From Blautia schinkii DSM 10518 (GTDB taxonomy: Bacteria; Bacillota; Clostridia; Lachnospirales; Lachnospiraceae): 64,000 nt of DNA. Below the pieces are notes generated by a model, which saw only the letters and a program-made list of their open reading frames with translations, searched no databases and was not told where the DNA came from. Of the stretch, positions 6,470 through 27,434 are shown in pieces. The position numbers were made by a program, and so were the translations under genes. The DNA is taken from contig JNKJ01000019.1 of the NCBI GenBank assembly GCA_000702025.1, forward strand, positions 62,001 to 126,000, written 5' to 3'. Numbering within the stretch: position 1 is the first letter of the stretch; the number at the start of each line of letters is the position of its first letter.

Positions 6470-6489
6470 GGAACCGCCGCGGCGGTTCC
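6470..6489. terminator. Perfect 20-bp GC palindrome at the 3' end of the Rpn gene
   Basis: GGAACCGCCG followed by its exact reverse complement, touching the stop codon of the leftward Rpn gene. No U-tract follows, so it may be a weak terminator or an mRNA 3'-end stabiliser. Confidence 0.55.
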
Positions 6490-7346
6490 TACATGCCATC
6501 TGTAAACTCGTCCAATGACTCTGCCCGCGCGGCGAGACGAAGCCATTGCGACAATTTATCATTGTCCTGCTCCGCTTCTATGCGCTTCCTTAATTCCTCC
6601 GATGGGTGCCCACGCATTTCCAACAGGGTAATTATGTAAGCCCCAGTCGCTTCACGCCAGCCCTCGTTATATCCCATCTTACGCTGATCACGCATCATCT
6701 CTTCCAGCAGCATATACCTTTCCTCCATTCCACGGTCATTCTTAATCTTTTTGACCTTATCCTGAAGACATTTCACAAAACTGTCCTGGAAATCCCCTTC
6801 GCTCTCTTGTGCAGATGCCCTTACGTATCTCAGGAATTTCACCAGCTCAGGCGGCACTGCCTCGTGGTTCCTGCCATGTGTGCTTAAATATATGCTTTTC
6901 GCCCCGTCATTTATAGAAAAGTCAGCTTCCACACATTTGCTTTCGCAGGTGTATCTGTACAGGCCTTTCCCAAAAGGATCAAAATCGCATATAAATATTA
7001 CATAAGTATCCGGCAGCTCCCCATAGGAAACTCCTTTCTCCAAAGCGTCCATGTCAAGATAGCTGTGGTAGTACCTTCCCCTCTTCACGAGAAAAGACTG
7101 AAACACCACCTGCATCTCAACGTTGAATCTGGTGTGATTCTCATCTGCAGCGTACACATCCAGACGTATCCCATGATATTCTGAATGGTATGCCATAGTC
7201 TTTTCCACGCACACCCGCACCTTGGCTATGGGAAATCCCAACGCCAGCTCAATCACCTTCCGGCAAATCTCCTCATCCGCCATCACGGCTGAAAACATAA
7301 AAGCATTGCTTATGGTTAAATCCTGGAATGTCTTTTGTCCTGCCAT
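6489..7346 (-). CDS. Rpn-family PD-(D/E)XK nuclease/putative transposase
   Basis: 285-aa member of the Rpn (recombination-promoting nuclease, YhgA-like; PDDEXK_2, PF12784) family. E. coli RpnA-type members are DNA endonucleases that promote RecA-independent recombination. The N-terminus FQDLTISNAFMFSAVM is typical. The nuclease core shows GIRLDVYAADENHTRF then NVEMQV, giving the D-(n)-E-x-Q catalytic signature near residues 77-95. The C-terminal third is charged and probably helical, ending WLRLAARAESLDEF. That tail resembles the C-terminus of the second Rpn protein at 37.5 kb (W-x-x-LAAR-x-x-S-x-EEF). GGAGGAGCA precedes the start. No terminal repeats flank it, so I see no evidence that it is a working transposon. 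Confidence 0.88.
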   Translation of the reverse strand: MAGQKTFQDLTISNAFMFSAVMADEEICRKVIELALGFPIAKVRVCVEKTMAYHSEYHGIRLDVYAADENHTRFNVEMQVVFQSFLVKRGRYYHSYLDMDALEKGVSYGELPDTYVIFICDFDPFGKGLYRYTCESKCVEADFSINDGAKSIYLSTHGRNHEAVPPELVKFLRYVRASAQESEGDFQDSFVKCLQDKVKKIKNDRGMEERYMLLEEMMRDQRKMGYNEGWREATGAYIITLLEMRGHPSEELRKRIEAEQDNDKLSQWLRLAARAESLDEFTDGM

Positions 7347-9580: not shown

Positions 9581-9851
9581 ATGGGGTCCCGAAAAGTTGT
9601 TGAACGTCGAAAGGAAGGGAAGGGAGAACCGGAGGCGGAGCAGCGGCAGCTTATGTCAGGCAGATGCTCGCTTCCCTTCAACTAATTGCCAACTGCGACT
9701 AAGAGACTCAAGAAGAGCTTTCGTCTCTAAGTCTCCGTAGGCAATGGATTTTCAGGCGCGCTTCCGCAAAACTGCCTGACATAAGCTGCCGCTGCTCCGC
9801 CTCCGGTTCTCCCTTCCCTTCCTCTCGACTTCCACTACGTTTTCACCCCAT
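9581..9851 (-). ncRNA. Structured repeat element, copy A
   Basis: A roughly 270-nt element that folds on itself end to end. On the minus strand the outermost arms ATGGGGT and ACCCCAT close it. A long stem follows, with GGAGGCGGAGCAGCGGCAGC on one side and its exact complement on the other, then GTCAGGCA/TGCCTGAC. Inside lie a GCG-GAAG-CGC hairpin, the stem TTGCC/GGCAA and the stem AGAGAC/GTCTCT. Conserved single-stranded blocks include TTAGTCGCAGTTGG and TTAGTTGAAGGGAAGCGAG. The outer stem differs in sequence from copies B and C but is still fully paired. It lies between the 53-aa gene and the PLD-like gene, in the same direction as both. Frames running through it look like repeat artefacts, not genes. 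Function unknown. Confidence 0.8.
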
Positions 9852-9880
9852 CATAGTGTTTGTCGTTTTCGCCGGGAGAA

Positions 9881-10042
9881 TTATTTATCGCCTTTATTTT
9901 TGGAACCTGGAATCATGCCGTATAACGTTCCACCCGCTAAACCAAGTGCCAAATTATTTAATAAGAGTCCAATTATCAGTCCAAAACACAATCCTACCGC
10001 CAGTTTATCGCTGGAAATGCTGTTTTTATTTTTCTTCTTCAT
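9881..10042 (-). CDS. Small glycine-zipper membrane protein (53 aa)
   Basis: A 53-aa protein starting MKKKNKNSISSDKLAVG. It has one hydrophobic stretch (about residues 15-43) built on small residues, GLCFGLIIGLL then LGLAGGTLYGMI, and ends in a basic GSKNKGDK tail. This is the look of the glycine-zipper/YtxH-type small membrane proteins found in many Firmicutes, for which no biochemical role is settled. GGGAGGG is six bases before the ATG, which supports real translation. It is flanked by two copies of the structured element in inverted orientation (9581-9851 and 10278-10530). That raises the possibility that gene and repeats travel as one unit. Confidence 0.75.
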   Translation of the reverse strand: MKKKNKNSISSDKLAVGLCFGLIIGLLLNNLALGLAGGTLYGMIPGSKNKGDK

Positions 10043-10277
10043 TACTAACCCTCCCGTGTGATAGTTTATAAATGAATAGTGATATTATACCATCAATAAA
10101 TATTATAGTCACTATTTATTTTACCACCTCTCCCCACCCACTTCCCTGCATAATAGATATAAAAGCATAAAAGCATGTTTACATTTATACTCTACCCATG
10201 AAATAAAATCCCCTCCAAAATAAGTAATCTCTGCAAGGGAGCCGAAAACGTAGCCACTACACACGCCCTCCATGCAA

Positions 10278-10530
10278 GGGCAACGAAAACGTAGTGGCAG
10301 GTGAGGAGAAGGAAATTCGGCGAGGGGCGCTGGCGCTGGCCTTGTCAGGCATTTTGCGGAAGCGCGCCTGAAAATCCAGTGCCTACGGAGACTTAGACGC
10401 GAACGCTCTCGTGAGCGTCTTAGTCGCAGTTGGCACTTAGTTGAAGGGAAGCGAGCAATGCCTGACAAGACAGCGCCAGCGCCCCGCGCCGAATTTCCTT
10501 CTCCTCACCGTTCAAAAACCTTCCCGGGAA
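10278..10530 (+). ncRNA. Structured repeat element, copy B
   Basis: Plus-strand copy. It begins near a GAAAACGTAGTGG block that is also present in copies A and C. The outer stem pairs GGCGCTGGCGCTG-side sequence (from 10318) with CAGCGCCAGCGCC (from 10471) and carries one A.G mismatch relative to copy C. The core is closed by GTCAGGCA/TGCCTGAC. Inner stems are GTGCC/GGCAC and AGACGC/GCGTCT, each a compensated variant of the other copies. A partial second GAAAACGTAG block lies just upstream at about 10243-10252. It sits between the 53-aa gene and the 3' end of the GtrA gene, opposite to both. No promoter of its own was identified with confidence. Confidence 0.8.
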
Positions 10531-16820: not shown

Positions 16821-16880
16821 CTGTATGACTTAGTTATCTGATTATTGTTGTAAAAGTTCAGACTCTCCGGACTGTTACGA

Positions 16881-19310
16881 TTATTCTGCTGCTGCGGTGT
16901 AGGTGATTGTCTCCGGTGTTGTCAGAGGCTCTACACTATATTTCTCAACACGTTCATCCTTGATGACACCGGACCAGTTTAATCCGAATGCGAAATCATA
17001 GGTGTTTCCGTCTGCATCCACATAGCACTCTACATCACGCGGTACGTCTTCCAACTGTGCCTCTACTGCTTCCATGCTTGCCGGCTGCTGTTTGATCAAA
17101 AGACCGGATGGCTCTGTCTGTCCTGTGATGATAGGCAGCATTACATCTGCGCCATACATGTCGGAGCTCATATCGTTGTCGTGCAGAAGAATGGCATCTG
17201 CCAGCGGTTCAACCTCTGTCCAGACCATAGCTGCTGAAGAAGTGGAGCCCATCATAACAATGATGCGGCAGTCTTCGGATACTGCACCTTTTACATACTG
17301 AAGTGTCTCAAGATCATTGTATGTACTTGCCTGTTCTGCTGTATTTCCCTTATAGGAACGGTCCTCTTCCACTTCCTGTGTGGTCACTCCGTAGTATCCG
17401 TCGCTGATTTCCACAACCTCTGTGCCGTTTGCGATCGCCTCTTCCGGGGCAGTCTCTGCGGTGTATGCTTCATACTGCATGGAGGCTGGCAGATAAACTC
17501 CGTCTTCATCTACAGTTCCGTCTGTATAAGGCGCTTTCATTCCTACGATTGCATAATCACATGCTGCAACCTCTTCTGCAGAAGCTCTGACAATATCCTC
17601 CGGCACATAAATGGCATTGCCGTCGTCATCCTTACCGCTTGGATCATTCAGGGTGTCTGTTACTACGTTATAATATTCGCTTGCTTTCTCAATATCGATA
17701 GCCGGCTCACAGGTATAGGTGAATCCCATCCAGGCAGCACCGCTTGCTTTGTAGCTGTATGGTACATAGAGCGTTGGCTTTTCTGCGGAAGCGTCATATT
17801 CATGAATAGTATTGTCAGAGTTTTTCAGCATAACAACAGATGCTTTCTGAAGCTCTGTACCGGTAGCTTTTGCTTCCTCGGTCCATGCCGTTGCAGTGGA
17901 TTCCTCAGTATCCAGATATGCATTTTCAAAAAGTCCTGTTTCCATCTGGGTTACAAAGAACCGTGTTGCATGTTCTCTCATATTTTCCAGCGCTGCTTCT
18001 TCGCCCAGATCTTCAACCATGATCTTATAGCCTTCTATCGCAGCCTCTGTATTGCTGGTGCCGCCGATCTGGTCTACACCGTTTTCAAACAGAGCGGCAA
18101 AACGTTCGCCCTGGGTCATATCCTCCACACCAAATGCACGGGAGCCCATAGCACCGTCTGCATCCTCGGTAATCTGCCAGTCAGTGAGGATAAATCCGTC
18201 ATAGTCATTGTCACGGAGAAGGTCCATCTTAAATTCACTGTAGCCGCCTCCTACAAGCTCTCCAAGTGATCCGTCCTCAGAATAGCTGATTCCATAATTG
18301 GGCATCAGGCCGCCTGCTTTTCCTGTTACGGAATCCAGGTTAAATGCACCGTCAAAGAACGGGATTAAATGTGCGGCAAAGTTGTTCCCCGGGAATACTG
18401 TATATTTACCGGAATCATTGTGGTCATTTCGTCCGCCTTCGGAAGCGCCGGCGCCTGCATAGTGCTTCACAATCGCTACTACGGAATCGTCTCCCCAGCC
18501 AAGGTCGTTGCCTTCCTCATCATAGGTAGACTGCAGGCCAGAGATGTAAGCATTTGCCATATCTCTGTTTAAAGCCGGGTCCTCGGAAAATGTACCTGAG
18601 GTACGGTCCCAGGAGCTTTCGCTGGCTACATCCACCTGCGGTCCTAACAGCATGGTGACGCCTACGGCACGGTATGCTTTGGAATGTTCCTGTGCGGCCT
18701 GTTTTGCCGTATCGGTATTCATTGTTGCACCAAGTCCGTTTTTATCAATGATATTGGAAATATAGTTGGGGTCAATACTGATGGTAACCGGAACGCCGTG
18801 TCCGCCGTTGGTTTCCGCATATTTTTGCAGCTCGTTATTCCAGGTCACAGCCATTTCTGTGTTGCCTTCATTTCCTGCGGAACGGGTGACTCCCGCACGT
18901 CCGCCTGCTGCAAGATATTCCTCGTCAGTTCCCACATCTTTTCCAAAGGACATCCATCCGCCATGAGTTAAAAGAGGTGCAATTTCCTCTCCGCTCATCT
19001 GAGAAGCAAGGTCCTGGGCACGGGTCTTATCATCCTCTCTCCAGTCCTCATATACATCCAGCTCGCCATCCTGGTCCAAATCCTTAAATGCATATCCGTC
19101 CTGCTCAATGATGGCAACGCCGGAATCCTTGGTGTAGCCAAGGGTGTCACCGCCTTCATTGGTAACCTTGATCCAGCCGTCCTTTGTTTCCTCCTGGGAC
19201 CATTTCTCCCCGCCTGCCGCTGCATCGCCTTCTGCCGCGTAAACAGCCGTGCTGCTTACCATGGTGAGCGCAAGGCCCAGTGCCATTAACTTACTCATTC
19301 TTTTCTTCAT
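16881..19310 (-). CDS. Secreted glycoside hydrolase family 3 protein, paralog 1
   Basis: 809-aa GH3 enzyme with a signal peptide, cut after TAVYA (about residue 25). A WSQEE segment and the DLDQDGELDVYEDWR motif (residues 78-91) follow; this Asp-rich signature precedes the catalytic barrel in many Firmicute GH3 proteins. The barrel carries GPQVDVA, KHYAGAGASEGGRNDH (about 282) and FILTDWQ, with Asp 377 as the expected nucleophile. The alpha/beta sandwich follows (SVVMLKNSDNTI near residue 490), and the protein ends after FAFGLNWSGVI, without a full fibronectin-like domain. It is the second gene after the promoter at 21963, 146 bp behind paralog 2. It would act outside the cell on beta-glycosides; the substrate is unknown. 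Confidence 0.93.
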   Translation of the reverse strand: MKKRMSKLMALGLALTMVSSTAVYAAEGDAAAGGEKWSQEETKDGWIKVTNEGGDTLGYTKDSGVAIIEQDGYAFKDLDQDGELDVYEDWREDDKTRAQDLASQMSGEEIAPLLTHGGWMSFGKDVGTDEEYLAAGGRAGVTRSAGNEGNTEMAVTWNNELQKYAETNGGHGVPVTISIDPNYISNIIDKNGLGATMNTDTAKQAAQEHSKAYRAVGVTMLLGPQVDVASESSWDRTSGTFSEDPALNRDMANAYISGLQSTYDEEGNDLGWGDDSVVAIVKHYAGAGASEGGRNDHNDSGKYTVFPGNNFAAHLIPFFDGAFNLDSVTGKAGGLMPNYGISYSEDGSLGELVGGGYSEFKMDLLRDNDYDGFILTDWQITEDADGAMGSRAFGVEDMTQGERFAALFENGVDQIGGTSNTEAAIEGYKIMVEDLGEEAALENMREHATRFFVTQMETGLFENAYLDTEESTATAWTEEAKATGTELQKASVVMLKNSDNTIHEYDASAEKPTLYVPYSYKASGAAWMGFTYTCEPAIDIEKASEYYNVVTDTLNDPSGKDDDGNAIYVPEDIVRASAEEVAACDYAIVGMKAPYTDGTVDEDGVYLPASMQYEAYTAETAPEEAIANGTEVVEISDGYYGVTTQEVEEDRSYKGNTAEQASTYNDLETLQYVKGAVSEDCRIIVMMGSTSSAAMVWTEVEPLADAILLHDNDMSSDMYGADVMLPIITGQTEPSGLLIKQQPASMEAVEAQLEDVPRDVECYVDADGNTYDFAFGLNWSGVIKDERVEKYSVEPLTTPETITYTAAAE

Positions 19311-19404
19311 TTTCTTGTGATACCTCCTGTATATTTTAATTTAAATCATAACTTAGTTACTGTTTCACTGCCGTCTTGTCACAGCTTTACTACTGTTTTG
19401 TTAC

Positions 19405-19446
19405 TGCTTCGTGGTGCAGAGAGGTGCTCCATACTACACCACGAAG
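19405..19446 (-). other. Long hairpin between secreted GH3 paralogs 2 and 1
   Basis: GCTTCGTGGTG pairs with CACCACGAAGC across a 20-base loop, 11 bp after the paralog 2 stop. Downstream on the mRNA follow several ACAGTAAC-like repeats before the next ribosome binding site. There is no U-tract; it may protect the upstream message or attenuate. Confidence 0.55.
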
Positions 19447-19456
19447 CGCTGACAGC

Positions 19457-21889
19457 TTACTCTGCTGTTGCAGCTGTCGTATAAGAAATGGTTTCCGGTG
19501 TAGTAAGCGGCTCGGCGCTGTATGTTTCTACACGTTCATCCTTAATCACGCCGGACCAGTTCAGGCCGAACGCGAAATCATAGGTGTTTCCGTCTGCATC
19601 CACATAGCATTCTGCATCACGGGGCACGTCCTCTGACTGTGCCTCTACAGCATCCATGCTTGCAGGCTGCTGCATGGGAAGAAGGGCGGATGGTTCTGTG
19701 TTTCCGGCTACAATATTTGCAAGGGATTCCTGTGTATGAATGTCAGACATACCTGCATAATATACAAGAATCGCATCTGCCATCGGTTCTACCTCTGACC
19801 AGACCATACATCCAACAGAGCTCATTTTCATTAATACGATTGTTTTGCAGTTTTCTCCCACAACACTGTCTACATACTTGAGAAGCTCATAGTCCGCATA
19901 GTTGCTTGCTTTATCTGCGGACTGTCCTGTATAGGAGCGGTCTTCTTCTACTTCCTGTGTGGTCACGCCGTAATAACCGTCGGTGATTTCTACGATTTCC
20001 ACGCCATTTGCAATTGCCTCATGAGCGTTTTCTGCTGTATATTCTTCATACTGAATGGATGCCGGATGATAAACGCCGTCCTCATCTACGGAGCTGTCTG
20101 TTACCGGATTGCTTATGGCCACAAGAGCATACTGACATGCTGCGACTTCGTCTTCTGATGCGCGGATCACGTCATTCTCTGTATAGGTTCCGTCCTCTCC
20201 TGTTGGTTCGCCCACGGAGTCTGTCACTACGTTGTAATACTGGCTATATACATCCACATCTGCACATGGCTCCCAGCTATATGTCACGGTCATTTCCGGC
20301 GCGCCTGCGGCTCCATTGGGGAAAGAAACCTCTGAATGAGAAACAAATTTATAAGGGATATAAACGCTTTCTTTTTCTGCTGAAGCATCATATGCATGAA
20401 TGGCATTCTCGGAATTTTTCAGCATCACTACAGAAGCTTCCTGGCTTTTTGTTCCCAGTTCTTTGTGCTCTGCGCTCCATGCATTTGCCACTGCATTCTC
20501 AGTGGAAATATATGGATTGTCATACAGTCCTACTTCCATCTGTGTTAAGAAGAAACGTCTTGCATGCTCCTGCATTAAAGAGAGTGCCTCCTCTTCCCCG
20601 ACATCTTCTTTCATAATCTCATAACCTTCCAGAGCAGCTTCAACGTTCGTTGTGCCTCCGATCTGGTCACATCCCACTTCGAACAAACGGGCAAATCTTT
20701 CTCCTTCTGTCAAGTCCTCCACGCCATAGGTACGGGTGTCGTCCTCGGTAATCTGCCAGTCTGTCAGGATAAATCCGTCATATTCATTGCCGCGCAGCAG
20801 ATTGATCTTATACTCGCTGTAAGCTCCGGCTACCTGCTCTCCTAAAGATTCGTCCTCAGAATAAGCAATTGCATAGTTCGGCATCACGCCGCCTGCTTTT
20901 TCTGTAACAGAATCCAGGTTAAATGCTCCGTCAAAGAATGCTACCAGATGTGCCGCGAAGTTATTTCCCGGGAAAACTGTATATTTTCCGGCATCACCAT
21001 GGTCGTTACGTCCGCCTTCGGAGGCTCCGGCTCCTGCAAAGTGTTTTGCAATTGCCACTACAGAATCATCACCCCAGCCAAGGTCATTTCCCTCTTCATC
21101 ATAGGTTGACTGAAGACCGGAAACATATGCCTTTGCCAAGTCTCTGTTTAATGCCGGGTCTTCGGAATACGTTCCGCTTGTACGGCACCAGGTAGACTGT
21201 GTCGCAATATCAACCTGCGGCCCTAAGAGCATGGTCACGCCAACAGAACGGTAATCCTTGGAATTCTGCTGGGCAATCTCTTTTGCCAGCTCTGTATCCA
21301 TTGTGGAAGCCAGACCGTTTCCGTCTGCTGTCCCGGAAATTCCATTGGGGTCAATACTGATAGTGACCGGGACGCCGTGTCCGCCGTTTGCCTCTGCATA
21401 GGTCTGCAGTGCGTTGTTCCACTCTACTGCTTTTTCTGTGTTTCCTTCATTTCCTGCGGAGCGGGTGACTCCGGCACGTCCGCCTGCTGCAAGATATTCC
21501 TCGTCTACGCCAACGTCAGAACCAAAGCTTGACCATCCTCCATGTGTCAGAAGAGGCGCAATCTCTTCTCCTGTCATCTTGGACGCCAGGTCTGCTGCAC
21601 GAGCCGCATCATCCTCTCTCCAGTCCTCATATACATCCAGCTCTCCGTCCTGATCCAGGTCCTTAAATGCATATCCGTCCTGTTCGATAATGGTCACACC
21701 GGAATCCTTACTATATCCAAGTGTTGTTCCCCCTTCATTGGATACCTTGATCCAGCCGTCCGTTGTTTCTTCCTGGGACCATTTCTCCCCGCCTGCCGCT
21801 GCATCGCCTTCTGCCGCGTAAACAGCCGTGCTGCTTACCATGCTTACTGCGAGGCCCAGCGCCAGTAATTTGCTCATCCTTTTCTTCAT
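19457..21889 (-). CDS. Secreted glycoside hydrolase family 3 protein, paralog 2
   Basis: 810-aa close paralog of the gene at 16881. It shares the signal peptide (MKKRMSKLLALGLAVSMVSS), the WSQEET and DLDQDGELDVYEDWR segments, KHFAGAGASEGGRNDH, the FILTDWQ nucleophile motif and the FAFGLNWSGVI end. The ORF runs 19 codons further upstream, but GAGGAAAATC directly before 21889 marks the start. It is the first gene after the promoter at 21963-21991, whose upstream box matches the one before the third secreted GH3. With paralog 1, the membrane-bound GH3, the signal-less GH3 and GtrA it forms a long leftward operon, which implies stepwise breakdown of a beta-glycoside from outside to inside. Confidence 0.93.
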   Translation of the reverse strand: MKKRMSKLLALGLAVSMVSSTAVYAAEGDAAAGGEKWSQEETTDGWIKVSNEGGTTLGYSKDSGVTIIEQDGYAFKDLDQDGELDVYEDWREDDAARAADLASKMTGEEIAPLLTHGGWSSFGSDVGVDEEYLAAGGRAGVTRSAGNEGNTEKAVEWNNALQTYAEANGGHGVPVTISIDPNGISGTADGNGLASTMDTELAKEIAQQNSKDYRSVGVTMLLGPQVDIATQSTWCRTSGTYSEDPALNRDLAKAYVSGLQSTYDEEGNDLGWGDDSVVAIAKHFAGAGASEGGRNDHGDAGKYTVFPGNNFAAHLVAFFDGAFNLDSVTEKAGGVMPNYAIAYSEDESLGEQVAGAYSEYKINLLRGNEYDGFILTDWQITEDDTRTYGVEDLTEGERFARLFEVGCDQIGGTTNVEAALEGYEIMKEDVGEEEALSLMQEHARRFFLTQMEVGLYDNPYISTENAVANAWSAEHKELGTKSQEASVVMLKNSENAIHAYDASAEKESVYIPYKFVSHSEVSFPNGAAGAPEMTVTYSWEPCADVDVYSQYYNVVTDSVGEPTGEDGTYTENDVIRASEDEVAACQYALVAISNPVTDSSVDEDGVYHPASIQYEEYTAENAHEAIANGVEIVEITDGYYGVTTQEVEEDRSYTGQSADKASNYADYELLKYVDSVVGENCKTIVLMKMSSVGCMVWSEVEPMADAILVYYAGMSDIHTQESLANIVAGNTEPSALLPMQQPASMDAVEAQSEDVPRDAECYVDADGNTYDFAFGLNWSGVIKDERVETYSAEPLTTPETISYTTAATAE

Positions 21890-21962
21890 GATTTTCCTCT
21901 TTCGCTTCGTTTTTTTGTTGTTTTCATGCAGGTATTTTCGCTGCATGTCTTAAGATGAGCTT

Positions 21963-22026
21963 ATTAAAACACGAATTTTTCACATCTACAAGGCGCGCTG
22001 GACGAACGGCCTTTATTGTTGAAATA
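21963..22026 (-). promoter_or_regulatory. GH3 operon promoter with LytTR-like activator box, copy 1
   Basis: On the minus strand TTGTAG (21986-21991), a 17-bp spacer and TTTAAT (21963-21968). Just upstream on the plus strand are TGGAC (from 21999) and GTTGAAATA (22018-22026). The same hexamers and boxes, with identical spacings, occur before the GH3 gene at 24480. The 21-bp repeat distance between half-sites is the spacing used by LytTR-domain activators, and such a regulator is encoded next door. Confidence 0.7.
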
Positions 22027-22060
22027 TGTCATTTTTGTCTGGATATCCTGCATTTTGGAC

Positions 22061-22096
22061 GCAAAAATGCTGTTCATCCTTTGACGAACAGCATTT
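22061..22096 (-). terminator. Terminator of the GHKL/LytTR operon
   Basis: AATGCTGTTC pairs with GAACAGCATT over a 10-base loop, followed on the minus strand by TTTTTGCG. A second hairpin, CCGCACGTC/GACGTGCGG at 22110-22138, precedes it. Confidence 0.85.
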
Positions 22097-22169
22097 CTAT
22101 ATAGCAGAACCGCACGTCCTGCTCTACATGACGTGCGGCTCTCAGCAAGTACGCCGAAGCATACCTTAA

Positions 22170-22886
22170 TTAACTGTCAATGAGGGAAAGGAACCTGCTG
22201 CGGACCTCCTTCACCCTGCTCCGCCCCACAGGAAGCTCCGTTCCATCCTTCAAAATCACATGGCCTGACTGGATCTTTTGTATATAGATGTAATTGACCA
22301 GATACCCTTTATGTATCCGGATAAAGCCCAGGGGTTCCAGCACTTCCTCCAGCTTGTCCATGGTCATTTTGACCTCAAGAGGTTCCTTCTGTCCATGTAT
22401 AAAAACAAGCTGATAATTTCCGCTCCCTTCGATATAGTGAATCGTCTTGCGTTTCAAAATAACGGTCTTTGTCCGTGTGGAAAACACAAGCTGCTCTGTC
22501 TGCTGGCTGCGGGAATGCTTTTTAATATATAATCTCACAAGGTCTGTGATGTCATTCAAGAAATTGCTCTTCCGCACAAAGCCCAGTGGATAAACGGAAA
22601 AAGCTTCAAACACCCTGTCCTCGCACTCAGAAACATAGACAATTTCCACAGTATTTTTCTGAAGACGGATTCGTTTTCCGACCTCTATCCCATCCATCTG
22701 AGGCATGTCGATATCCAGAAGCACGATGTGGAAATTCTCTGTCTCCATCGCCTGCAGAAGCTCCTTGCCTGAGCAGTAGCACACAGTACGCACATCCAGC
22801 TTTTGCGCCCGAAATGCAGAAATCACAGCTCCCTCAACCACAGGCAGGGCACGCTCATCATTATCGCACAATGCAATCTTAATCAT
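22170..22886 (-). CDS. LytTR-family response regulator (AgrA/ComE-like)
   Basis: 238-aa two-component regulator. The receiver domain occupies residues 1-120, with the acidic pocket CDND near the start and the phospho-acceptor Asp 58 in LLDIDMP. The LytTR DNA-binding domain covers about 140-235 (KTIHYIEGSGNYQLVFI, then FIRIHKGYLVNYIYI). The usual KP dipeptide of the receiver is replaced by RKS, as is common in this group. The gene overlaps its kinase by 8 bp, with GGAGG before the ATG. It sits between two secreted-GH3 promoters that carry matching boxes, so control of glycosidase expression is the natural inference. Confidence 0.92.
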   Translation of the reverse strand: MIKIALCDNDERALPVVEGAVISAFRAQKLDVRTVCYCSGKELLQAMETENFHIVLLDIDMPQMDGIEVGKRIRLQKNTVEIVYVSECEDRVFEAFSVYPLGFVRKSNFLNDITDLVRLYIKKHSRSQQTEQLVFSTRTKTVILKRKTIHYIEGSGNYQLVFIHGQKEPLEVKMTMDKLEEVLEPLGFIRIHKGYLVNYIYIQKIQSGHVILKDGTELPVGRSRVKEVRSRFLSLIDS

Positions 22887-24252
22887 GCTGCTGTCCTCCC
22901 GTCATTTCCATAAGGATTTTTGCCGTAAAGTATCCGTCCTGGACAGAATACTCTGCACAGCCATTATATTTTTCTGCAATTCTCGCAACAATCTGCGTAC
23001 CATACCCATGCTGCACCTGGTCTTCCTTTGTGCTGCGGACGCCGTCCATCCAGTAGGACAGTGTGGATTTATCTGTTGTATTGCAGCAAAGAATATAAAG
23101 ATAATTTGCCTCCGGATAAATTTCCAATCTGATTTTAGGCTCTGTTTCTCCCTTTTCCCTGATGCGGCGGCATTCCTCAATAGCGTTGTCCAATAGATTG
23201 GTGAGCAGGCTGCAAAGCTCGTCATCCTGATACGGCAGCACCGGAGGCACTACCAGCAGCGAATCTATGGTAATCTGGGAATCCACCTTCGCGTACTCCA
23301 TATTTAAGATGACATTGACACTCTTATTTCCACAATTCACATAGTTTTTCGGCACGGAGAAGCTGGGGTCAGTTTCCGAAAAATAATTCTCCAGCTCCTG
23401 GTAACGCTTCTCCTGCAGCAGAATCTTCATATAGGAACGCTGGTTTTTTAAATCATGGCGGATACTGCGGATTTCTTCCATTTGTTCCTTTGCCATATAA
23501 AAGCGCTCTTTTTCTTTCTCAAGCTGCTGTTTTTCTTCCCGGAGAAGCATAATGCTGTCCTGTCCCTTGCACACAGAATAAAGCGCATAGATAGAAGCCA
23601 GCACAATAATCAAAAGGCAGAGGTAGGTTACCAGAAAACGTTTCACTTCTTCTATTCCTGTTGTGGGCCATACGGATTCTGTCACCACCAGGCACATAAG
23701 GGAAAAATCACCGCAAAGGATTAAAATCAGCCCCGGTACCGGAAGCTTTTCAAAATCATCAAAGTTCCATCTGGAAAGATACACCGCAAGCAGCGGAATA
23801 AGCAAATATACGAAAACACGGGCAGCGGCTTCCGGCCAGCCCTTTCCCAGATAAGCTCCTGTCAGATAGCTTATCTGTCCTGCAATGGAAGTTAATGACT
23901 GCAGACCTGCTATCATGGAACACCACACAATAAATTTCGTCTTGCTGCGGTACTCAGAAAAGAAGTGTAAATATAACGCCAGCGCCCCCCATTGAACCAC
24001 ACTCCAGACTACTAAAAACGGGGGACTTTTAAAAATAAAATCGGCTGCAATGCCCAGAAACGTAAAAATCAGCAGTAATATGATCCCTTCCATTGCATAC
24101 CGTGCATTTCTTTTTTTCATTCCTGCTGTGTTTTCCTTTTGGTTTCCGCGATACCGGATTCCGTGACAGGCAAAAACATATGCCACGGAAACCAACAATT
24201 GCTGAAGCACCCACGGAACCAGTTCCAATACACCGGATAATCTCATAGTCAC
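22879..24252 (-). CDS. GHKL-domain sensor histidine kinase (AgrC-like)
   Basis: 457-aa membrane kinase. Residues 1-235 carry about six to seven transmembrane helices and no large extracellular domain, like peptide- or small-ligand-sensing AgrC proteins. A coiled coil follows (REEKQQLEKEKERF). The phospho-acceptor His is in SIRHDLKNQRSY (about residue 265). The GHKL ATPase domain has LLTNLLDNAIEECRR (N box) and HGYGTQIV (G box). Translation may start at the GTG (24252) or at an ATG two codons later; GGGGAG is suitably placed for both. It is co-transcribed and overlapping with the LytTR regulator. Its signal is unknown, and no signal-peptide gene is visible nearby. Confidence 0.92.
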   Translation of the reverse strand: MTMRLSGVLELVPWVLQQLLVSVAYVFACHGIRYRGNQKENTAGMKKRNARYAMEGIILLLIFTFLGIAADFIFKSPPFLVVWSVVQWGALALYLHFFSEYRSKTKFIVWCSMIAGLQSLTSIAGQISYLTGAYLGKGWPEAAARVFVYLLIPLLAVYLSRWNFDDFEKLPVPGLILILCGDFSLMCLVVTESVWPTTGIEEVKRFLVTYLCLLIIVLASIYALYSVCKGQDSIMLLREEKQQLEKEKERFYMAKEQMEEIRSIRHDLKNQRSYMKILLQEKRYQELENYFSETDPSFSVPKNYVNCGNKSVNVILNMEYAKVDSQITIDSLLVVPPVLPYQDDELCSLLTNLLDNAIEECRRIREKGETEPKIRLEIYPEANYLYILCCNTTDKSTLSYWMDGVRSTKEDQVQHGYGTQIVARIAEKYNGCAEYSVQDGYFTAKILMEMTGGQQHD

Positions 24253-24337
24253 TCATCTCCCCCATAGAGAATTTTCATTTGTTTTATTACTTCTTTTACT
24301 GTACAAACGTCTTCCATGATATATTTGTCAGTATATC

Positions 24338-24380
24338 ACAAAAAGGCTGGTGAATGAAACGTATTTTCTGCACCAGCCTT
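24338..24380 (-). terminator. Terminator of the third secreted GH3 gene
   Basis: AAGGCTGGTG pairs with CACCAGCCTT over an 18-base loop and is followed by TTTTTGTG on the minus strand. The 100-bp leader between stop and terminator holds repeated GTTACAG/ACAGT motifs. Confidence 0.88.
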
Positions 24381-24479
24381 CCCGTATGACTTTTATTTCT
24401 GTAACTTTTTACTGTGATGTTTCACTGTAACTTTCGTAACAGTACAAACCTGTCTAAACTGTTACAAACCTTTTTATGA

Positions 24480-26900
24480 TTATTCCGCTGCCGTATAGGT
24501 AATCGTCTCCGGTGTGGTAAGCGGCTCTACATTATATGCGGCTACACGCTCGTCCTCAATCTTCCCGGACCAGTTCAGACCGAAGGTGAAGTCATATGTA
24601 TTTCCGTTAGAGTCTACATAGCACTCTACATCACGCGGTACATCTTCCATCTGTGCTTCTACTGTTTCCATGCTTGCGGGCATCTGGATTGGCAGTAAGC
24701 CGCTCGGTTCTACCTGTCCGCCAAGGATTGGCATGAAATTATCGGCTGCCGCGCCAAAACTTACTAAAATCGCATCTGCATCATTTTCGAATTCTGAGAA
24801 AATCATGGCATTTGATGCGGTTACACACACTGCCAGCTTGCAGCTTTCCGGTATAGCCGCCGCTACTTCCTGAATCATCTCCAAATCACTGTAATTGGAA
24901 GCAGATGTACTTTCCCCATAGTAAGAACGATCCTCTTTATTCTTATTTGTCTGCGGACCATACGGTGTCTCTACGATTTCCTCTACCACACCCTGTGAAA
25001 TAGATTCCTTACGGACACTTTCGGAATCTGCAGTGTACTCACCGTACTGCAGGGAAATCGGTTTATAGGTATCTGTTTCACTGTCATATCCGTTTCCTGT
25101 ACTCGGATTAGAAACAAATACTGCTGCCATATCACATGCTGCTAAATCTTCCGCACTTGCACGAACGATATCTTCTTCTGTATAAGCAGCATTTCCCTCT
25201 TCATCCTTTCCGCTGGGCTCTCCTACGGTATCTGTTACAATATTCATATACTGGCTTGCAGTCTCCTCATCGATCGGAAGTGACCAGGAAGCCGGTGTTC
25301 CGCTTCCTCCGTACATTCCTCCGGAAGTTGCCGCATTAAAGGTCATAGGAATATAAACAGTCGGGAGTTCACCACGCTCTGCGATAGTACCCTCGCTATT
25401 TTTCAGCATAACGATCGATTTCTGTCCTAACTCACTGAAACCATTGCTGATTCCGCTGTTGTCGATAAGCTCTACCGCTTTTTCCGTCTCGGAATATGGA
25501 TTCTCAAAAGCGCCTGTCTTCATGTACTCTCTTAACAACCGCACTGCAGAACCATAGAAATTCTCATGTGCCGCTTCCTCACCGAACTCTTCCACCAGCA
25601 TATCATAGCAGTTCGCAATCTGCTGTACATAAGGAACCTCCTCACCAAAATCAGGCATCAGGATACGGTCAATCCCGATTTTGATAATCTGATAGATGAC
25701 TTCCTGGCTGTCCATCCCATCCATTCCATGCACAGAGATTGTCGGTACATTCCCCGCATTCCCCTCCATGATCAAAGAGTCAGTAGATATAATGCCATCA
25801 TAGCCATTTTCCCGAAGCAGATTAATCTTATACTCACTAAAGTTACTTCCTACTAATTCACCATACTTTTCATCTTCGTCGTAAGCGATTGAATAAGAAG
25901 GCATAACCGCTGACGCTGTTTCCGTTGCAGAGTCAAGCTTAAATGCACCGTCAAAAAACGGAACTAATGCGGTAGCAAAGGCATCGCCCGGATACACATT
26001 ATATTTGCCAAACTTATTATGAGATTCACGTCCGCCCTCTGCTGCTCCATCGCCCGGGAAGTGCTTCACCTGCGCAATCACACTGTCTTCGCCCCAGCCC
26101 TGATCATTTCCTTCCTCATCAAACGTAGACTGAAGGCCAGTAATTGCAGCCTTCACCATATCCGTTACAAGCGCCGGATCTTCTCCAAAGGTAGATTCCG
26201 CCCGTGACCAGCGCGGCTCTGTGGCCAAATCTGCCTGCGGCCCAAGAAGCTCATATACACCAACCGATCTCATTGCTGCAGCAGTATCATTATAAAAACC
26301 CTTCACAGCCTCTGTATCAAAAGTAGACGCCAGAGCCAGCGCACTCATGTTATGCATATACTTGGACGGCGGGTCCATACTCGGAATGACCGGAATACCA
26401 TAATCCGCCTTTTCCGCCATCTCCTGCATCTTATTCACTTCTTCCGTAATAATGTCCGTTGCACTACTTGCAAGCGCATTCCCCAGAAAATGACGCACAT
26501 TATTATTCAAATCCTCCTCAAACGCCTTCGCATCCGCGCCCGGGTCCTTTGCCGTATAACGCAGCCCCGCAATCTGTTCCGTACTAAGCTTTCCGGCCAG
26601 ATCCTCCGCTCTTGTCTGGTCCTCCTCTCTCCAGTCCTCATAAACATCCAGCTCCCCGTCCTTATCAAGGTCCTTGAATGCATAACCATCCTGCTCGATA
26701 AGCGTCACACCGGAATCCTTACTATACCCCAGCGTCTCACCGCCCTCATTCGTCACCTTGATCCAGCCGTCCGCCGTCTCCTCCTGTGACCACTTCTCAC
26801 CACTCGCCGTCACATCCGCCGCAGCCACACAAACGGCATTACTACCCACCATCGTCACCGCAAGCCCAAGCGCCAGTAATTTGTTCATCCTTTTCCTCAT
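24480..26900 (-). CDS. Secreted glycoside hydrolase family 3 protein, paralog 3 (diverged)
   Basis: 806-aa GH3 paralog with the same signal peptide layout (MRKRMNKLLALGLAVTMVGS), the DLDKDGELDVYEDWR motif and the FGLNWSGKI end. The catalytic barrel is clearly diverged: KHFPGDGAAEGGRESH keeps the family's KHFPGxG motif, and the nucleophile region reads GIISTDSLIMEG (Asp 374), whereas paralogs 1 and 2 have FILTDWQ. It also lacks their GGRAGVTRSAGNEG segment. A different sugar or aglycone preference is likely. It has its own promoter (26959-26987) and terminator, so it is monocistronic. GGGAG precedes the ATG. Confidence 0.92.
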   Translation of the reverse strand: MRKRMNKLLALGLAVTMVGSNAVCVAAADVTASGEKWSQEETADGWIKVTNEGGETLGYSKDSGVTLIEQDGYAFKDLDKDGELDVYEDWREEDQTRAEDLAGKLSTEQIAGLRYTAKDPGADAKAFEEDLNNNVRHFLGNALASSATDIITEEVNKMQEMAEKADYGIPVIPSMDPPSKYMHNMSALALASTFDTEAVKGFYNDTAAAMRSVGVYELLGPQADLATEPRWSRAESTFGEDPALVTDMVKAAITGLQSTFDEEGNDQGWGEDSVIAQVKHFPGDGAAEGGRESHNKFGKYNVYPGDAFATALVPFFDGAFKLDSATETASAVMPSYSIAYDEDEKYGELVGSNFSEYKINLLRENGYDGIISTDSLIMEGNAGNVPTISVHGMDGMDSQEVIYQIIKIGIDRILMPDFGEEVPYVQQIANCYDMLVEEFGEEAAHENFYGSAVRLLREYMKTGAFENPYSETEKAVELIDNSGISNGFSELGQKSIVMLKNSEGTIAERGELPTVYIPMTFNAATSGGMYGGSGTPASWSLPIDEETASQYMNIVTDTVGEPSGKDEEGNAAYTEEDIVRASAEDLAACDMAAVFVSNPSTGNGYDSETDTYKPISLQYGEYTADSESVRKESISQGVVEEIVETPYGPQTNKNKEDRSYYGESTSASNYSDLEMIQEVAAAIPESCKLAVCVTASNAMIFSEFENDADAILVSFGAAADNFMPILGGQVEPSGLLPIQMPASMETVEAQMEDVPRDVECYVDSNGNTYDFTFGLNWSGKIEDERVAAYNVEPLTTPETITYTAAE

Positions 26901-27055: not shown

Positions 27056-27090
27056 GACAAAAAGTGCAGTTTGTCATGGACAAACTGCAC
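27056..27090 (-). terminator. Hairpin with U-tract upstream of the GH3 paralog 3 promoter
   Basis: GTGCAGTTTGTC pairs perfectly with GACAAACTGCAC over three bases, followed by TTTTTGTCG on the minus strand. Its position relative to the promoter matches the terminator at 22061-22096, so the whole upstream block seems duplicated. Here it would insulate against read-through from the right. Confidence 0.75.
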
Positions 27091-27101
27091 ATGCCCTCCA
27101 T

Positions 27102-27363
27102 ACGAGGGGTACGAAAACGTAGTGGTAGGTGAGGAGAAGGAAATTCGGCGCGGGGCGCTGGCGCTGGCCTTGTCAGGCATTTTGCGGAAGCGCGCCTGAA
27201 AATCCATTCCCTACTAAGACTTAGGCGCGAGAGCTCTTCTCGAGCGCCTTAGTCGCAGTTGGGAATTAGTTGAAGGGAAGCGAGCCATGCCTGACAAGAC
27301 AGCGCCAGCGCCCCGCGCCGAATTTCCTTCTCCTCACCGTTCAAACCTTTCCGTGGGGCCCCG
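27102..27363 (+). ncRNA. Structured repeat element, copy C
   Basis: Plus-strand copy closed by GGGG/CCCC near its ends. It has the GAAAACGTAGTGG block, the outer stem CGCGGGGCGCTGGCGCTG with its complement CAGCGCCAGCGCCCCGCG, and the invariant GTCAGGCA/TGCCTGAC closing the core. Inner stems are TTCCC/GGGAA and AGGCGC/GCGCCT. Together with copies A and B these give three different, always complementary, versions of both inner stems. The copy ends 12 bp before the -35 of the marR promoter and lies between divergent genes. Confidence 0.82.
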
Positions 27364-27374
27364 TAAAAACCATA

Positions 27375-27434
27375 TTGACAAATCAATTTCATGCGGCTAT
27401 AATTAGTTCGTACCCTAACAGTTCGCCTACGAAC
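27375..27434 (+). promoter_or_regulatory. marR/ABC promoter with palindromic operator
   Basis: TTGACA (27375-27380), a 17-bp spacer and TATAAT (27398-27403) form a consensus promoter. GTTCGTA (27406-27412) and its inverse TACGAAC (27428-27434) straddle the expected transcription start, the typical placement for MarR autorepression. Confidence 0.82.

Follow-up and report, generated by a model that had tools for sequence, protein, structure and literature searches.

The window analyzed here is a stretch of 64,000 nucleotides of Blautia schinkii DSM 10518 (contig JNKJ01000019.1, positions 62,001 to 126,000), and the coordinates given below are positions within it. It carries three copies of a hairpin element, A, B, and C, whose outer limits are approximate. 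Each copy consists of a leader, a 5' arm, a core, a 3' arm, and a 3' end, which together form one hairpin. Copy A lies on the minus strand (9581 to 9876), with its conserved 5' leader on the inner side and its 3' end on the outer side, at 9581. Its 3' arm (9606 to 9669) is the near-perfect complement of its 5' arm (9766 to 9829), both with approximate limits taken from the fold, and its asymmetric conserved core spans, with the innermost arm bases, 9650 to 9785 according to the covariance model R1 described below. Copy B (about 10256 to 10530, plus strand) is the divergent partner of A; the two stand back to back with a gap of about 400 bp. Its 5' arm (10300 to 10351) and 3' arm (10458 to 10510), again with approximate limits, enclose the conserved core, which R1 places with the innermost arm bases at 10338 to 10472. 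Copy C (about 27080 to 27363, plus strand; core and innermost arm bases at 27166 to 27301 in R1) stands alone, with no partner recognized in the 1.3 kb that precede it. The center between A and B harbors a small ORF of 53 amino acids (9884 to 10042, minus strand), hydrophobic, for which a Pfam search returned no match and which is preceded by a TG-TATAAT promoter-like site (10112 to 10084, minus strand). A further promoter-like site, read by eye (TTGACA, 17 nt, TATAAT; 27375 to 27403, plus strand), precedes the downstream MarR/ABC genes; it begins about 12 bp past the 3' end of copy C and is kept in a relative, genome G358. Elsewhere in the window, we noted a purine riboswitch (Rfam RF00167) at 1549 to 1644, a gene for a PD-(D/E)XK nuclease family transposase (PF12784) at 6489 to 7346, near copies A and B, and three large repeated genes, apparently paralogous, at 16880 to 26900 (repeat families D1 to D5), of which the one at 24480 to 26900 matches glycoside hydrolase family 3.

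Compared to dinucleotide shuffles, the folds of A, B, and C reached z values of -17.3, -14.3, and -14.3, respectively, and for each copy none of 200 shuffles folded as well. This confirms a first-pass annotation of this DNA, which had reported three folded copies. Both stems that it quoted are present in A, B, and C as given: the inner stem (TTGCC/GGCAA, GTGCC/GGCAC, and TTCCC/GGGAA) and a second one (AGAGAC/GTCTCT, AGACGC/GCGTCT, and AGGCGC/GCGCCT). Its outer stem of 20 to 30 bp was too short, since the arms that enclose the asymmetric core are near-perfect and comprise about 50 or more paired bases each. The core, which it had called single stranded, is indeed conserved, down to invariant internal-loop bases, but much of it consists of short helices and conserved internal loops.

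To describe the family, we built the covariance model R1 from 51 copies of the same genome (alignment A1, 50 of them distinct). Initial DNA searches of this genome (6.68 Mb, 65 contigs) had given 172 to 175 first-look candidates; the model found 145 matches at an E value of 0.001 or better. This is a count of matches, in which a single copy may appear twice, as two pieces at contig ends, and with model scoring applied to 150 of 1,997 first-look candidates, copies may be missed. At about 280 bp each, 145 matches amount to roughly 40 kb. Flanks were retrieved for 135 of them, and at least eight of the other ten lie at contig ends. At least 20 of the 130 contig ends of this genome fall inside copies (examples are found in contigs C1, C2, C18, C23, C24, C26, C33, and C34), indicating that the hairpins probably break the assembly.

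Searching further genomes with the model, as the first-pass annotation had proposed for the Lachnospiraceae, we obtained matches in 17 of 299 genomes of the family sample and in 19 of 64 of the genus sample, our own genome being counted in both, and in 1 of 291 of the class sample, which was our own. The filters in these searches were stricter, at the cost of weak matches, so that absences in the large samples are of lower sensitivity. The distribution across the sampled genomes is patchy. In a pattern scan with one genome per species, the labels among the matches listed were Lachnospiraceae, Dorea, Blautia, Eubacterium, Clostridia, Clostridiales, and Eubacteriales. The element is thus not confined to this strain but recurs in other Lachnospiraceae-type gut genomes. 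Viral contigs (searched with the exact pattern), phages, and plasmids contained no match to the element, and we rejected a phage or plasmid origin on this ground.

We then asked how well the fold is supported across copies. In A1, 98.4% of the consensus-pair cells were paired, and 19 of the 40 consensus pairs displayed two-sided compensatory change. Cells with two-sided change numbered 204, compared to 57.5 in shuffles; none of 500 shuffles reached the covariation score, and the covariation was lost when partners were slid by 1 to 3 columns. The compensatory change noticed in three copies is therefore real and stays strong with 51, although the arm mismatches weaken it as proof of selection at the RNA level (see below). 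One U·G pair of the core is invariant in all 50 distinct copies of our genome and in all 83 others in which neither side is a gap. Landmarks in the core are 80 to 83 nt apart (48 copies), and in the 42 of these 48 copies in which both arms were measurable, each arm is about 71 nt long, counted from its landmark to its end. Arms that depart from this length shift jointly (66/67, 67/69, 76/78, 76/78, 77/79, and 77/78). The innermost stem beside the core is conserved in our genome, and the hairpin spans nearly the whole length of the element, about 280 bp here and 207 bp in G358. Loci from other lineages share the same core but have different arms and ends.

The relative G358, which is the same genome as G657 in the genus sample, has 18 matches and provided evidence for movement. 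Its single copies have clean terminal inverted repeat ends, GATGTCGGGG...CCCCGACATC. In the 11 copies in which both ends could be placed (within 2 bases), the flanking 7-bp repeats were exact in 6 and matched at 6 or more of 7 positions in all 11. Exchanging the right flanks among the G358 copies gave means of 0 and 0.5 of 11, and 4.1 at the largest. In B. schinkii, no target duplication was found above chance: repeats of at least 8 bp at the flanks occurred in 8 of 37 pairs and 15 of 54 singles, compared to 8.9 and 14.8 with shuffled partners, a count that takes in contig-edge copies and in which several matches are contig-edge artifacts. The copies in this genome may thus be older, may have been inserted as pairs, or may have been made differently.

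Orthologous loci were in line with insertion and decay. The MarR/ABC promoter of G358 lacks copy C, as the model has no match there, and is followed instead by a shrunken hairpin of the G358 type. Behind the G358 GtrA orthologue there is no hairpin; because synteny ends at this point, this is an absence rather than an exact empty site. The L071 locus comprises about 800 bp including the hairpin, compared to about 78 bp in G358. Some copies (L301, L371, and L375) have no core, and such core-less derivatives keep both ends. The sequences thus show mobility in G358, and we infer the same for B. schinkii.

A short, noncoding, high-copy repeat with terminal inverted repeats and, in G358, target site duplications has the properties of a MITE. 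In the ordinary form of such an element, an insertion sequence DDE transposase would recognize the ends as double-stranded terminal repeats, the core being carried along as a passenger. The inverted repeats with their 7-bp duplications in G358 agree with this, as does the retention of both ends by core-less derivatives. However, it is the interior that is conserved here while the ends vary by lineage, and a passenger core is not expected to keep dozens of invariant positions and covariation. Furthermore, a pattern search of G358 for the ends, allowing up to 3 mismatches, gave 72 hits, and in the 13 loci that were read no autonomous partner was recognized; these were shrunken, partial, single-end, or contig-edge copies. 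We therefore regard an ordinary MITE as possible but on balance somewhat unlikely. An insertion sequence end had also been named beforehand as a finding that would speak against a folded RNA: the mobile behavior with duplications in G358 comes close to it, but no such insertion sequence was found. The usual logic of MITEs is reversed in this family, with the inside conserved and the ends variable, so that there may be an enzyme to be discovered that recognizes nucleic acid by its fold.

Strong covariation that withstands controls could also come from a structured RNA, that is, copies that are transcribed and whose folded RNA is selected, acting in cis or in trans. We scanned the whole window against Rfam and found no family at gathering score over copies A to C; nine further loci, eight of them from other genomes, gave no match at threshold. 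One Rfam match, MIR2118, lay below threshold and was discarded as a generic long hairpin. Identity with a known RNA family was rejected after three Rfam scans without a relevant match on the copies tested, in agreement with the earlier impression that the element resembles no known RNA class.

The placement of the copies was tested on 126 of 135. A promoter match of at least 10/12 was present within 120 nt past the 3' end, on the same strand, in 23 copies; the opposite strand gave 3, the two control positions on the 5' side gave 3 and 7, and shuffles gave 2.8. At 11/12, there were 9 copies (controls, 0, 1, and 1; shuffles, 0.27), and at 9/12, there were 40 (controls, 23, 19, and 18; shuffles, 15.9). 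By simple ORF calling, the gene on the 3' side was codirected in 32 of 43 singles, and in pairs 29 of 34 left genes and 17 of 29 right genes pointed away. Copies thus tend to sit upstream of promoters, with the 3' end facing the gene. Orientation relative to genes, which had seemed free in the three copies of the window, is clearly biased over the copies examined, toward one polarity, though not absolutely. A cis-acting leader RNA or riboswitch was rejected, because promoter enrichment is seen only past the 3' end and the neighboring genes differ. Against a selected RNA in general speak this position in front of promoters rather than behind them, a scan of the interiors of copies A and B that found no promoter-like site, and a distribution of the mobile-element type.

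The mismatches in the arms bear on the same question, since selection on an RNA strand should give an excess of G·U over A·C. In the arms of 109 copies of our genome, we counted 5,484 Watson-Crick pairs, 54 G·U, 48 A·C, and 51 other combinations. With looser limits, the counts were 68, 69, and 170 in 111 of 135 copies (16 without both anchors and 8 at edges were left out). Similarly, 71 copies from other loci, taken from 73 typed among 90 matches after leaving out G358 copies and some truncated ones, had 36 G·U and 39 A·C. G·U and A·C are thus about equally frequent, without strand preference, which speaks against RNA-level selection on the arms and fits DNA copying. It suggests that one arm may be copied onto the other in DNA and that the sequence then decays neutrally. 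Template switching has been argued to be able to create and maintain hairpins (PMC8794818). G358 supplied a candidate case: two neighboring changes in the left arm have no counterpart in L326 and L346, while L328, L334, L344, and L348 have the matching change for both, as one templated copying event would give. This family may be a natural example of strong arm covariation that does not necessarily reflect RNA selection, a point of relevance to the use of covariation for finding RNAs.

Other counts lean toward G·U. In the arms of 12 of the 18 G358 copies, 19 cells with two-sided Watson-Crick change stand against 52 one-sided cells, and the one-sided changes gave 34 G·U versus 9 A·C cells (20 versus 8 distinct states). 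In the core, A1 contains 74 G·U cells, 50 of them from the one invariant pair, versus 3 A·C, and A2, an alignment fitted to the model, which bears on its wobble counts, contains 238 G·U (83 from the invariant pair) versus 39 A·C (18 in one column). The arms could therefore be under RNA selection before insertion. The wobble counts are thus mixed with regard to RNA or DNA, neutral in the arms and G·U leaning in G358 and in the core. We read them as arms homogenized in DNA around a core that is constrained as a folded plus strand, either RNA or single-stranded DNA, the latter already offered as an alternative in the first-pass annotation. That annotation's interpretation as a whole is partly supported. 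Taking placement, promoters, arms, and distribution together with the covariation and the G·U-leaning counts, we consider a selected, transcribed RNA most unlikely as the explanation of the family.

An intermediate of RNA or hairpin-primed DNA, as in retrons or SINEs, would accommodate several of these features. If the second arm were remade in each cycle by self-priming at the inner stem, arms would be perfect at birth and could be swapped wholesale. This would agree with near-perfect arms that differ between lineages and change in length together, with the conservation of the innermost stem beside the core in our genome, and with the G·U leaning of the core. On the other hand, among the seven largest neighbor clusters, which we annotated (80 loci), we found no mobility gene, reverse transcriptase, or integrase; they encode ABC transporter, two-component, glycosyltransferase, AAA, PRPP-type, and unknown proteins. 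Target duplications that hardly vary in length are more usual for a DNA integrase. An intermediate of this kind thus appears quite unlikely to us.

In B. schinkii, neighbors within 2 kb are divergent in 40 cases and convergent or tandem in none, so that in every pair the 3' ends point outwards around a variable center. In other genomes, the close pairs that we noticed, not a full tally, were divergent as well, bar two tandem cases: three copies at G359:C4:17632-18614 and probably two, on one strand, at G656:C136:7265-7673. Such strictly divergent pairing is not explained by a model of mobile hairpins. It could mean that the two hairpins of a pair mark the ends of a composite cassette with small passenger genes. 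Besides the divergent-only pairing, this is suggested by the recurrence of hairpin pair and center as a unit of about 0.6 kb in L219, L221, L263, and L276, by the 53-aa ORF between A and B, and by further small genes in or near hairpin centers (DUF6442, HTH_3, and NUDIX and, below the cutoff, SnoaL_2 and InPase). However, an ORF of at least 240 nt is present in the center of only 7 of the 40 pairs, some of them doubtful, and the centers in our genome are nearly all unrelated to each other. Moreover, singles adjoin ordinary-looking ORFs, and it is singles that move in G358. We find cassettes very doubtful for these reasons. Small genes lie between or beside hairpins at L169, L073, L179, L180, L071, and 9884 to 10042 of the window; at L071, the single copy adjoins a hydrophobic ORF of 103 amino acids. 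A search for partners of single copies mostly found none; the L155 single has a second inverted repeat, and L144 contains a palindrome of 53 bp, possibly an artifact of assembly.

We also considered whether pair centers represent the autonomous element itself. This was rejected, as they are mostly unrelated and contain few ORFs, those being ordinary small genes or unknowns. The same holds for pairs with centers of 2 to 3 kb (L123, L124, L217, and L228), whose contents do not fit autonomous units: the center of L123 includes a peptidase M24 gene among others, that of L124 GH130 and GlcNAc 2-epimerase genes, and L228 encodes two proteins without a Pfam match. At L217:2475-5976, a divergent hairpin pair flanks 3.3 kb without ORFs of 100 amino acids or more. 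This stretch lies directly in front of genes for ParA-type and ParB proteins (Pfam) and contains several TGTTTCACGTGAAACA sites, which we take to be a parS-like motif.

To place the element among known systems, we compared it with several groups. In retron msr-msd and integron attC, single-strand folding outweighs arm sequence, and hairpin arms are variable. The element is similar in that the fold of a strand seems to matter more than its variable arms, but it is dispersed with target duplications (G358) and has no reverse transcriptase or integrase in the annotated neighbor clusters. IS200/IS605-type elements are not known to make a target duplication, so the duplications in G358 led us to reject this identity.

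Bacterial MITEs and small palindromic repeats such as ERIC, NEMIS/Correia, RUP, and YPAL/RU-2 are about 100 to 200 bp long, according to a review (PMC2229807). With these the element shares being short, noncoding, and often intergenic, an end-to-end long stem-loop, and target duplications. It differs from them in its size of 207 bp (G358) to about 280 bp, in its divergent pairs, in having no known partner insertion sequence, and in its conserved interior, variable arms and ends, and covarying core. The CIR repeats of Caulobacter and Brucella likewise combine conserved secondary structure with small size, but they consist of two arms joined by a linker, and the passages on them in the same review do not describe rewritten arms or a 7-bp duplication (PMC2229807). 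REP and BIME repeats with their RAYT transposases resemble the element in exceeding 100 copies per genome and in being palindromic, extragenic, and alternating in orientation within clusters (PMC2817692). REPs are 20 to 40 bp long (PMC3733652), whereas the element, at 207 bp or more, is a giant hairpin that has a folded core and duplicates its target; on size, we rejected membership in the REP/RAYT group. Titles and opening lines of abstracts on Blautia and Lachnospiraceae repeats and structured RNAs, mostly outside subscription journals, do not describe this family. An abundant mobile element of this build, a hairpin throughout and conserved in its folded core, is apparently undescribed, and it was not found in Rfam.

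Overall, the family looks like a mobile element rather than a regulatory RNA gene. We think it likely that it is a small noncoding mobile DNA element made of one long imperfect palindrome, with a core that is read, arms that are copied in DNA, and movement in trans. The element would insert into AT-rich sites, tending to land upstream of promoters, and would duplicate about 7 bp of target, as seen in G358 only. A putative enzyme supplied in trans would move it. Conservation of the inner core across genera, despite differing arms and ends, makes it most likely that this enzyme, or a partner, recognizes one strand through its folded core. Within the DNA, one arm would serve as template for the other, through template switching or synthesis primed by the hairpin; the mismatch pattern and the one two-site switch point to such copying as the reason why arms stay near-perfect. 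After insertion, copies would decay, some losing the core and shrinking to short hairpins, as examples illustrate. Many hairpins in our genome (40 pairs) are arranged back to back, and sequence comparison shows such pairs recurring as a unit in one other genome. A bolder version takes the folded core, instead of the ends, as the mobility signal for an enzyme that would copy the arms by hairpin priming in each cycle, making arms and ends replaceable wholesale, and would place the product in front of promoters with 7 bp duplicated, back-to-back pairs being able to carry small genes between them. We put this forward as speculation that, taken in full, is unlikely.

In our own genome, a second inverted-repeat insert of about 160 bp, with ends ACTGCCCAGCTTATCTCTGGCGAAA as read in L302, is nested in the core of that copy. 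The cores of L044, L046, and L052 are split in the same way.
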